Source of the DNA: an uncultured Candidatus Poseidoniales archaeon
GTDB lineage: Archaea > Thermoplasmatota > Poseidoniia > Poseidoniales > Poseidoniaceae
Direction of reading: 5' to 3'
Assembly: GCA_905182725.1 (NCBI GenBank)
Contig: CAJJCQ010000081.1
Span: 1-32,920, forward strand
Length of the DNA: 32,920 nt
In this document: one piece after another, positions 25,938-32,332 of the stretch
Position numbering within the stretch: the stretch's first letter is position 1
Layout of the letters: each line of letters opens with the position of its first letter
Notes under the pieces: generated by a model
The model's input: only the letters and a program-made list of their open reading frames with translations
Told to the model about the DNA's origin: nothing
The model's database searches: none
Translations under genes and position numbers: made by a program

Positions 25938-26885
25938 TCAACTCTCAAATTCATTGATCGCCTTTGCCGCAGCAACTACATCTCCATCTTCCCACCAATC
26001 AACCGCGATAAAGGTAGGTCGTTTCCCATGTTGCTGCCAACACTCTTGGGCACGTTGTATCAGGAAATTGACATCGTTTGCCTCAGCACCACGAGACGGG
26101 TCAGACAATCCGATTGGGCCTCTTAACCAGTTATTCATGTGGTAGACTTCTTGTTCAATATCTCCACGCAAAAGGTCACAATTCATGTCCTCAGTGTTCT
26201 CTTCAGCAAAGTTCGTCGTCCAACTGTGCGTGAGGAAATCATGAATCCAAGGGTGCGAGGCATCTCCACCTTGTTCCCAAAAGACCACCAATGTTGTGTC
26301 GAGGTCAATGAGTTCTTGTAATGTTGGCCAAGGAGTATTTGATTCATGGATGAAAACTTTTTCATATAATTGTGAAAGTTCAAACACGGATTTGAGATGT
26401 TCTGCTTGAACATAGTTTTCAACCAACAGTGTGACTACATCACGCGGGTTCTGTTCCATTTTTTCGTTAAGGTTCGTTAACCAGTCAACCGAATCCACAT
26501 TACCGTAAGCGCATGGGCTGAACCCTCGGTCGTCATCACCATGGCATAATCGAACGGTTTCAACCCGCTCATCACCAAGATTTTCATAGTGGGTGTCAAT
26601 CATAAAAGCTCTCATTCCAGCGTCCCATTGAGCATTAAATCCAGTTTGATGATTTGCAGCTGGATAATAAATCCCATCATCATGAGTAGAAAAGGCGTTA
26701 TGAGTTTCTGGAAACGTTACATCATCATAGGTTCGCAAGCAGAGAATCAACAAACCGTTGCAAGGTTCAGTTGGTGATTCGGTTTCTGGTGATTGATTCA
26801 TTGAGAGCGTGTCAACAGTCGGTGCAACACAACCAGAACTCATCAAAATGAAGGTTACCATGAATGCACATAGAACCCCTCGCAT
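25938..26885 (-). CDS. Secreted lipoprotein, PI-PLC-like phosphodiesterase
   Basis: Lipobox-like LMSSGC; FPETHNAFSTHDDG, DAGMRAFMIDTHYEN, RLCHGDD resemble PLC-X core with two catalytic His; AVDWWEDGD near the C-terminus. Confidence 0.7.
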   Translation of the reverse strand: MRGVLCAFMVTFILMSSGCVAPTVDTLSMNQSPETESPTEPCNGLLILCLRTYDDVTFPETHNAFSTHDDGIYYPAANHQTGFNAQWDAGMRAFMIDTHYENLGDERVETVRLCHGDDDRGFSPCAYGNVDSVDWLTNLNEKMEQNPRDVVTLLVENYVQAEHLKSVFELSQLYEKVFIHESNTPWPTLQELIDLDTTLVVFWEQGGDASHPWIHDFLTHSWTTNFAEENTEDMNCDLLRGDIEQEVYHMNNWLRGPIGLSDPSRGAEANDVNFLIQRAQECWQQHGKRPTFIAVDWWEDGDVVAAAKAINEFES

Positions 26886-28804: not shown

Positions 28805-31030
28805 GTGTCCGAACTCGCACAGGGTATGACCGAACAGCCTCAACCATCGACACCGGGACGAAAGGTTTCGGAGGAATTTGCTGCGGTTCAGGCAGAATTA
28901 GTTGCTGAAGATAACATTTTCTCGATGATGAGAGAGCAACTTCCTTCAATGATGGGCATGGCGTTCATGTTTATTTTGACCATTGCCCTTTCGCTCTTTA
29001 TTCGACCTTGGTATGATATTGCAGGTTTGCAGGCATTTGGTGAGGCTGGAGCATCGCAAGTACGCTACATTGCACTTGAATTGTTCATGATTTTTGTCTT
29101 TACTGCATTCATTTTACTGCTTGCTAAATATAAGAAAGAATGGATCATCAAATATGGAATCATGGGTGTTCTTTCGATTGCCTTGATGTATTCTACCGTA
29201 CCATTGGCTCATATGCTGGTTTTGGATTTAGAAGTTGAACCGTTTGAATACGAAAATGAAAGCGAAATCGACATGTCTTATCTTTCACATCATGGTATGG
29301 ATACACATCTAACTAATTCATTGCTCGGAAGTCCTGGAATGTGGAATGATACGATTAACGTCTATCATGGTGCAGACATGTTGGATGCCACACCTGCTTG
29401 GTCCATGACCCATGAACGTATTGGGTTTGACGATACTGGAAAAGTACGCGTTGTGGTTTCAGATGAATATTTTTCATTCACAAACCAAGGATATATTTGG
29501 TATGCTGATGCTGAAACCGGTGAATTGCAAGACTCCTATGCGTGCCATCGTTACGTCGAAGACGGAGATGGAAATTCTAATCTTGATTTCCTCGGTACCT
29601 TATCCGGTACTTGTTCACTTGCTTTTTATGCAGATGATGCAATGTATGTCATTGACGAAAACAATCTCTTGGTGCGCTTCAACGTGTTCGATGAAAATCC
29701 TGGTGAACTGTTCTATCAAGCAGGGTGGAATCTTCCATCCGAACTTAAAACGCATACGGGGGTTGAATATGCTGAATTGATTGATGATGATAAAATTCTC
29801 ATTGTCACCTCAAACATGGCTATTGTCGTTCAATTAGAACAAACTTCAGCGCCATTGAATCCTCTCGTCATTGATTTCAAGGAAGATGCTAAACTCTTGT
29901 TCGAAACAAATGCTACGAGTAATTTCACCAGTGCTGACTTTGGACATTCCCCTTGGTCTGAGAATTCGATCAATGAATCGAACGTGAATGAAGGGCTTTT
30001 ACTCCTCGGAGAAGAAAGTGGAGATGTCGTTAGTTTTGAATGGAATGGAAATGTAACTGAAAGTGAATTCACGCCACAAACGAAAATGAACCTTCTTGGC
30101 TATGCTGATTCTATCCAATCCGTTCGTATCACTGACCTTGATGAAAGTGGTTGGAGTGACTTACTTATTACTACAGATGAAAGTGCAAACTGGCACCATG
30201 GGCAATTATTGAAGAACAGAATAAGTTTCTCAGTCTCAGATGATTTGGCAACAAGTTGGTTTGGTCAATCAGACAACACCTCACAATTCCATGCAGTGTA
30301 TGACAACGGTTCAATCACAATAGAATCCGGTGAAGTAACGGGTGACATGATGGCTCTCGAAGGTTTACAACTGGAAAATGGACCTCTCTTGGCTGGACTC
30401 TTAGTCGCCATAATTTTGATGATTTTACTCTATGTTCACAGTGAGTGGTATGTGGTCAATACCGTAGGCGTACTCGTGGGTTCTGGCGTCATTGTCATGC
30501 TTGGAGTTACGTTCGTTCCAACATTGATTATTATCTTCATGATTGCTGCGGCCATCTATGATGCATGGGCGGTCTACAGCTCAAAGCATATGCTTGCCTT
30601 GGCTGATACAATGATTGGACTTCGACTCCCGATACTTTTGGTTGCCCCACAAGAAAAGGGCTATTCCTTCATCGATGAAACAGTTTCAATGAAAGAAAAG
30701 AACACTCCCCCATCTGAGCGGCCAAAGGGACCATCTGCGCCTAAGAAGAAAGGTAAAGATGCTATGTTCATGGGACTTGGCGATGTTATATTCCCTGGAA
30801 TGCTCGTTCTTTCTGCTGCACAATACATCGAAGGAACTGATGGCTTCCTTGTGGCCATGACAACCCTTCTCGGAGGGTTAATGGGATACTTTGCATTGAT
30901 GACCTATGTCGCACGTGGACGTGCACAGGCAGGACTTCCATTGTTAAATGGCGGCGCTATTTTGGGCTATGTCATCGGTGGCTTACTGATTGTAGGAACT
31001 GCAATCTTCGACTTTGGAATTACATTGTGA
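28805..31030 (+). CDS. Presenilin / signal-peptide-peptidase-type (A22) intramembrane aspartyl protease with large extracytoplasmic insertion
   Basis: About nine TM segments; TM6-like AAAIYDAWAVYSS (YD, 30557-30562), TM7-like FMGLGDVIFPGMLVLSA (GLGD, 30773-30784), TM9-like AGLPLLNGGAILGY (PAL-like). Roughly 385-aa insertion between TM3 and TM4. GTG start. Confidence 0.8.
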   Translation: MSELAQGMTEQPQPSTPGRKVSEEFAAVQAELVAEDNIFSMMREQLPSMMGMAFMFILTIALSLFIRPWYDIAGLQAFGEAGASQVRYIALELFMIFVFTAFILLLAKYKKEWIIKYGIMGVLSIALMYSTVPLAHMLVLDLEVEPFEYENESEIDMSYLSHHGMDTHLTNSLLGSPGMWNDTINVYHGADMLDATPAWSMTHERIGFDDTGKVRVVVSDEYFSFTNQGYIWYADAETGELQDSYACHRYVEDGDGNSNLDFLGTLSGTCSLAFYADDAMYVIDENNLLVRFNVFDENPGELFYQAGWNLPSELKTHTGVEYAELIDDDKILIVTSNMAIVVQLEQTSAPLNPLVIDFKEDAKLLFETNATSNFTSADFGHSPWSENSINESNVNEGLLLLGEESGDVVSFEWNGNVTESEFTPQTKMNLLGYADSIQSVRITDLDESGWSDLLITTDESANWHHGQLLKNRISFSVSDDLATSWFGQSDNTSQFHAVYDNGSITIESGEVTGDMMALEGLQLENGPLLAGLLVAIILMILLYVHSEWYVVNTVGVLVGSGVIVMLGVTFVPTLIIIFMIAAAIYDAWAVYSSKHMLALADTMIGLRLPILLVAPQEKGYSFIDETVSMKEKNTPPSERPKGPSAPKKKGKDAMFMGLGDVIFPGMLVLSAAQYIEGTDGFLVAMTTLLGGLMGYFALMTYVARGRAQAGLPLLNGGAILGYVIGGLLIVGTAIFDFGITL

Positions 31031-31039
31031 GGTGATGAT

Positions 31040-32332
31040 ATGCTCGACATGAATCTGTTCCGAAATGAGCCCGATGTGATTCGTAAAGATCATGATAAAC
31101 GTGGGCTACCTCATGATAAAATCGACCAAGTCATTGCTTTAGATCAGCAATGGATTAACCTTCAACATGAAGCAAATCAACTTCGTGCAACAAAAAACAC
31201 CGCAGCACGAGGCATTGGGGCTGCCAAGAAGTCAGGTGATGAGCAAGCCGCCCAACGTATTCTTGCTGAGGTTGCCGATTTAGGTTCACAAATTACCGAG
31301 ATGGAAAAGAAAACCGAACAAGCCATGGCAGAACGAGACCGTCTGCGGATGAGTATCCCGAATATCCTTCATCCTGATGTCCCTGTTGGGGCAGATGAAT
31401 CTGAAAATACTCAATTGAGTGTGCATGGAGAAAAGCCACAATTTGAATTTGAAACGAGAACCCATAACGAACTCATTGAAATGAATAAATGGGTTGACCT
31501 CAAACGCGCTGCAAAGATTGTAGGGAGTCGTTTCTTCTTCCTTAAGGGCGACTTGGCACGACTTGATTTCGCTTTACAACAATTTGCTGTTAATTTCATT
31601 CGAGAGCGTGGCTATACTTTCGTTCAGCCCCCTCTTATGATGAACAGGGAAGCCTATGAAGGCGTAACAGATTTGTCTGACTTTGAGACGGTCATGTATG
31701 GGGTTGAACCTGATAATTACTACATGATTGCAACCGCAGAACACCCACTTACGGCTATGTTCATGAATGAAACCATACCTGAAAGCGATTTACCACTACG
31801 CATTGTAGGACTCTCACCGTGTTTCCGAAGGGAAGTAGGGTCTCACGGTCAGTCTGATTTAGGAATTTGGAGAGTTCACCAGTTCACCAAAATTGAACAA
31901 ATCATTATTGCCACACCAGAGCAATCATGGGAACTTCAAGAAGAACTGTTACAGAACTGCATTGACTTATGGGATGCATTGGAAATGCATTACGAGGTCG
32001 TGAACATTTGTACAGGCGACATGGGAACGGTTGCTGCTCGAAAATATGACCTTGAAGCTTGGATTCCCGGAGCAAACCAATACAAAGAGATCGTATCATG
32101 TTCGAACTGTACCGATTATCAAGCAAACAGATTGCAAATCCGATATGGACAGCCGGGTCACTCAGGACAACCGATTGCACATACACTCAATTCGACCGCA
32201 GTGGCAACTTCTCGTGCATTGGTTGCCATCATGGAACAAAATCAAATGGAAGATGGGCGAGTTCAAATTCCTCAAGTGCTACAACCTTTGATGGGTGGTC
32301 AAGAAATTCTTGAACCATGCACTTGGGGCTAA
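31040..32332 (+). CDS. serS: Seryl-tRNA synthetase
   Basis: N-terminal coiled-coil arm; class II motifs ATAEHPLTAMF, SPCFRREVGSHGQSDLGIWRVHQFTKIEQ, EIVSCSNCTDYQANRLQIRY, HTLNSTAVATSRALVAIMEQNQ. Confidence 0.95.
   Translation: MLDMNLFRNEPDVIRKDHDKRGLPHDKIDQVIALDQQWINLQHEANQLRATKNTAARGIGAAKKSGDEQAAQRILAEVADLGSQITEMEKKTEQAMAERDRLRMSIPNILHPDVPVGADESENTQLSVHGEKPQFEFETRTHNELIEMNKWVDLKRAAKIVGSRFFFLKGDLARLDFALQQFAVNFIRERGYTFVQPPLMMNREAYEGVTDLSDFETVMYGVEPDNYYMIATAEHPLTAMFMNETIPESDLPLRIVGLSPCFRREVGSHGQSDLGIWRVHQFTKIEQIIIATPEQSWELQEELLQNCIDLWDALEMHYEVVNICTGDMGTVAARKYDLEAWIPGANQYKEIVSCSNCTDYQANRLQIRYGQPGHSGQPIAHTLNSTAVATSRALVAIMEQNQMEDGRVQIPQVLQPLMGGQEILEPCTWG

Follow-up and report, generated by a model that had tools for sequence, protein, structure and literature searches.

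The locus described here raises the question of why a presenilin-type protease from a planktonic archaeon carries a large soluble domain between its third and fourth transmembrane (TM) helices, and what this domain might do there. The gene occupies positions 28805..31030 (plus strand, as do all features of the gene given below) of the window, the 32,920-nucleotide stretch of DNA that was analysed, and encodes a 741-residue PSH-type (A22) intramembrane aspartyl protease with a predicted propeller insert. The product is an archaeal presenilin homologue (PSH) of the presenilin/SPP-type (GxGD, A22) family, and its score of 218.6 bits on the NCBIfam PSH equivalog profile lies above the cut-off of 125; it also matches Pfam SPP at 2e-53. 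By sequence, its PDB match is the archaeal PSH structure 4hyc (E 1.1e-28), with both catalytic motifs aligned. Specifically, Asp586 of the YD motif in TM6 (residues 585–586, 30557..30562) aligns with YDA of 4hyc, and Asp660, which closes the GLGD motif (residues 657–660) at the start of the TM7–TM9 segment (30773..30994), aligns with GMGD. Both aspartates are invariant in 68 aligned sequences, as are, fully or nearly, the residues of the PAL-equivalent motif QAGLPLLNGG (residues 708–717, 30926..30955; GLPLL at 710–714). The protein thus combines YD and GxGD on successive TM helices with a PAL-type motif in the TM9 region, and the alignment to 4hyc predicts that Asp586 and Asp660 face each other as the catalytic pair. 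The ATG at 28826 (Met8) is probably the start codon rather than the GTG at 28805, because all 15 aligned sequences have Met8 and several of them begin with it.

The position of the insert is defined by a profile HMM built on plain PSHs of the phylum. This profile matches residues 41–140 (profile 7–104, E 8e-16) and 527–732 (profile 108–299), and the insert therefore comprises residues 141–526 (29225..30382), lying in the TM3–TM4 loop. TM1–TM3 (approximately residues 45–68, 85–107 and 114–139; 28937..29221) fall within the first matched block and correspond to AF2 helices 38–72, 82–108 and 112–139, while TM4–TM6 occupy 30380..30580 according to the 4hyc alignment, the HMM and AF2. AF2 modelling of the full-length protein places both the helices and the all-beta insert at the HMM-derived positions. 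AF2 helices and HMM alignment together give nine TM helices across a membrane core modelled at moderate confidence (pLDDT ~50–80), a modest value that is perhaps due to an input alignment of close relatives alone. The original prediction had named an A22 protease with the same ORF, length and YD, GLGD and GLPLL positions, interrupted between TM3 and TM4 at 29225–30379; the ORF and its translation, the PSH profile and the 4hyc alignment bear out the former, and the HMM-derived bounds reproduce the latter almost exactly.

Modelled alone by AF2 with 68 homologous inserts, the inserted domain reaches a pLDDT of 90.6 and a pTM of 0.90 and contains 30 strands (approximately residues 151–511), which can be read as about seven four-stranded blades. 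Among the PDB matches listed by Foldseek, beta-propellers predominate overwhelmingly (WD40 proteins, DDB1, BamB, Sec12; E ~1e-7), and this confident model matches solved propellers across the whole domain. TM-scores of ~0.4–0.5 to these PDB propellers make the class clear and point to no close structural relative, and a structure search against viral structures returned generic propellers and nothing else. By sequence, the window insert yields nothing significant, or at cut-off, against Pfam and PDB. One blade contains an FG-GAP-like motif, IQSVRITDLDESGWSDLLITTD (residues 437–458, 30113..30178), in which D444 is invariant and D446 and G449 are conserved in >90% of sequences. The window insert stays below the Pfam gathering score of the FG-GAP repeat family (best E 0.63), FG-GAP matches are weak in 11 of the 68 sequences, and FG-GAP_3 falls below its cut-off. 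The insert of a distant relative (family f33) matches the BBS7 propeller at 1.1e-5, BBS2 at 4e-4 and FG-GAP_3 at 8e-4, all below the curated cut-offs. Taken from the model, the insert is a predicted beta-propeller of about seven blades that replaces the extracytoplasmic TM3–TM4 loop.

This domain very probably lies outside the cell, because several features point in that direction. First, the whole protein contains just two cysteines, Cys247 (29543..29545) and Cys270 (29612..29614), both located within the insert, both kept in 68/68 aligned sequences and presumed to be disulfide partners; a conserved disulfide probably braces the propeller. The inserts of Thalassarchaeaceae likewise contain two invariant cysteines, the position of one being apparently shifted. 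Second, the insert is strongly acidic (69 D+E versus 13 K+R). Third, it is enriched in N-x-S/T sequons, with 8 observed versus 4.4 expected from shuffles, and a mean of 6.2 versus 3.5 expected across the 68 sequences. Fourth, the K/R residues of the core concentrate in loops on the predicted inner side, among which the presumed cytoplasmic TM6–TM7 loop (30581..30772) is Lys-rich, with 11 K+R versus 7 D+E. Finally, the TM3–TM4 loop faces outward in the known presenilin topology, and in one other lineage the same site holds a DUF11 domain, a family found mostly in surface proteins. A beta-propeller on the extracytoplasmic side, rich in N-x-S/T and opposed to a Lys-rich cytoplasmic TM6–TM7 loop, had been anticipated; these counts agree with each part, and the AlphaFold model proposed as a check returns an ordered propeller instead of a disordered segment.

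The architecture recurs widely across the survey, which covered the phylum Thermoplasmatota, with one or two genomes per genus in Thalassarchaeaceae. A homologue is present in 264 of the 293 genomes of the class, and >100 of these proteins align across nearly all 741 residues, a recurrence that argues against both chance and local fusion. Nearly all of the 80 best-matching named public contigs share this architecture, and the chromosome-scale MG-II record CM001443.1 (L186) carries the insert-bearing form. The insert is present in all sampled genera of Poseidoniaceae and in four of the 11 Thalassarchaeaceae genera (g15, g17, g19, g22); the other seven (g12, g13, g14, g16, g18, g20, g21) have a short loop instead. 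MGIII and most of Thermoplasmatota encode a plain PSH of ~280–330 aa. In these counts the survey families f1, f2 and f3 are taken, from named contigs and kinship, to be Poseidoniaceae, Thalassarchaeaceae and MGIII, respectively. A class-wide insert was considered and rejected, since MGIII and the seven Thalassarchaeaceae genera lack it. Several near-complete genomes of family f17 gave no PSH match in the phylum search, and two f17 members gave weaker, divergent matches.

Inserts of 220–370 aa also occupy the same site in the Thermoplasmatota families f8, f11, f18, f26 and f33 (L083–L094, L096), and probably in f28 as well. Additionally, a PSH from an f5 genome (L095, genome G411) carries at its TM3–TM4 site a 96-residue DUF11 domain (residues 94–189, E 1.7e-8, above cut-off), apparently the product of an independent event. 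Such an insertion had been regarded as unusual for a presenilin homologue. For the A22 family this description stands, but this genome is one of many with the insert-bearing form, which is the regular one in Poseidoniaceae and in some Thalassarchaeaceae; the search of archaeal genomes suggested with the original prediction, run in Thermoplasmatota, found it in >100 genomes.

Trees built on the protease core with the insert removed address the history of the domain. The insert-less Thalassarchaeaceae proteins (L229, L231, L233–L239, L241–L244) group together in a single clade that lies within the insert-bearing Poseidoniales, with support of 100/99 in the more careful tree and 99 in the other; this nesting therefore indicates a single loss of the insert within Thalassarchaeaceae, as reconstructed from the core sequences. 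In one of these insert-less proteins, L244, the domain split is unusual, with overlapping parts. Profile comparison identifies the Poseidoniaceae and Thalassarchaeaceae inserts as homologous (99.6%, E 1e-23). In such comparisons the inserts of f11, f18, f26 and f33 show no detectable homology to the Poseidoniales ones, and the sequences do not align reliably with each other. One tree groups all large inserts, consistent with a single origin (SH-aLRT 90), and the careful tree leaves the backbone unresolved. A search for free-standing copies of the insert in its own and related genomes returned nothing beyond one marginal match (E 0.09). Similarly, no trans-encoded propeller was found in the insert-less Thalassarchaeaceae, using a profile of limited sensitivity that also missed the non-Poseidoniales inserts. 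Within the insert-bearing proteins the two parts evolve at different rates, the median identity to relatives being 35% for the insert versus 74% for the core, a pattern often seen in domains that are exposed and adapting.

The genomic surroundings of the gene are conserved. The seryl-tRNA synthetase gene serS (31040..32332, plus strand) begins ~10 bp downstream of the protease gene. Among 80 Poseidoniaceae loci, 79 have serS downstream in the same orientation; in nearly all it is the immediate neighbour, mostly within ~15 bp of the aligned ends. A folC-like gene is found in 76 of the 80 loci. The linkage with serS suggests that the protease gene is co-transcribed with a housekeeping gene, which offers no clue to the substrate. 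Elsewhere in the window, a 315-aa protein encoded on the minus strand (25938–26885) begins with a lipobox-like sequence (SSGCVAP), has no Pfam match at E 0.01 and looks like a secreted lipoprotein.

On balance, we lean towards an active PSH protease whose propeller sits over the outer face and gates or recruits membrane substrates. The product would be proteolytically active, and the propeller would be placed on the outer face, above the side at which substrates enter. From there it would gate or recruit substrates among membrane proteins: remnants whose ectodomains are short or of a particular kind would enter, and intact membrane proteins would be kept out. With its rapid divergence, the propeller might follow the substrates or ligands of each lineage over a catalytic core that is held constant. 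Gating is proposed because of positional analogy, not homology, with two systems of unrelated fold that act from this side of the membrane: nicastrin, which in trans denies substrates that have large ectodomains access to presenilin (PMC6551803), and the PDZ tandem of RseP, which is inserted in cis in a periplasmic region and forms a size-exclusion filter (PMC7728848). Against this reading, seven Thalassarchaeaceae genera have no propeller, and the domain is therefore dispensable for basic function.

The same domain could instead act as a ligand sensor, in which an external small molecule, sugar or peptide bound by the propeller switches the protease allosterically, with no filtering by size. 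Propellers often bind ligands, and both the fast evolution of the insert and its loss in one Thalassarchaeaceae group would suit such a role. However, the Pfam search of the insert gave no recognisable ligand-binding family or motif at cut-off, and its FG-GAP-like Asp motif was matched weakly, so that we regard allosteric sensing as unlikely. Equally unlikely, in our judgement, is a propeller with a separate surface job, such as adhesion or scaffolding of envelope proteins, attached to an ordinary peptidase of signal peptides or membrane debris. This arrangement would accord with plain PSHs being the rule across the phylum and with the DUF11 domain that takes the propeller's place in one lineage, as if the loop tolerated passengers; it sits poorly with a propeller held always at the same site in >100 genomes and with the absence of any detached copy from the genomes searched, a search of limited sensitivity to distant copies. 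Least likely, and very improbable, is an inactive pseudoprotease whose role is to tether the propeller to the membrane, since the YD, GxGD and PAL-region residues show little or no variation across 68 aligned sequences even as the insert diverges.

The gating enzyme favoured above bears on a wider pattern and on a long-standing question. Somewhat short of an even chance, in our estimate, is the broader proposal that the TM3–TM4 loop of archaeal PSHs is a recurrent acceptor of extracytoplasmic domains, here propeller and DUF11, that serve as built-in gates or receptors, which would make these enzymes a single-chain counterpart of gamma-secretase. How presenilin-type proteases choose their substrates has long been asked and is hard to approach in the four-subunit gamma-secretase, whereas an enzyme that carries an ectodomain within its single chain, and has natural insert-less relatives, would make the role of an ectodomain directly testable. 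If the gate reading is true, the Thalassarchaeaceae loss series provides a natural comparison for its effect. The insert-bearing form is, moreover, the normal form of PSH in Poseidoniaceae, a very common planktonic archaeal group.

A literature search found no description of a presenilin homologue with a propeller in the TM3–TM4 loop, within an incomplete coverage that leaves room for a prior description. Several known systems nevertheless share parts of this architecture. The archaeal PSH of Methanoculleus marisnigri (MCMJR1, PDB 4hyc; NCBIfam NF041679) shares the whole catalytic core, the plan of nine TM helices and the YD/GxGD motifs, but is ~300 aa long with a short TM3–TM4 loop, where the window protein has 386 inserted residues. 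Members of the SPPL2 family are GxGD proteases with a lumenal accessory PA domain; this domain is N-terminal, unlike the propeller within TM3–TM4. The FG-GAP/VCBS, BBS7/BBS2 and BamB propellers share the fold and the FG-GAP-like D-x-D-x-x-G motif with the insert, but none matches its sequence at family cut-off. Gamma-secretase, comprising presenilin and nicastrin, is a related GxGD protease in which a large ectodomain above the membrane part controls access (PMC6551803); nicastrin, however, is a separate glycoprotein subunit of unrelated, peptidase-like fold, whereas the domain described here is encoded in cis and modelled as a propeller. In RseP and related PDZ-containing site-2 proteases, a soluble periplasmic domain also interrupts an extracytoplasmic loop of the intramembrane protease and serves as a size filter (PMC7728848), but both the metalloprotease and its PDZ domain are unrelated to the parts of the window protein. 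Collectively, these comparisons identify the protease family and the propeller fold as known, and their combination as apparently new.
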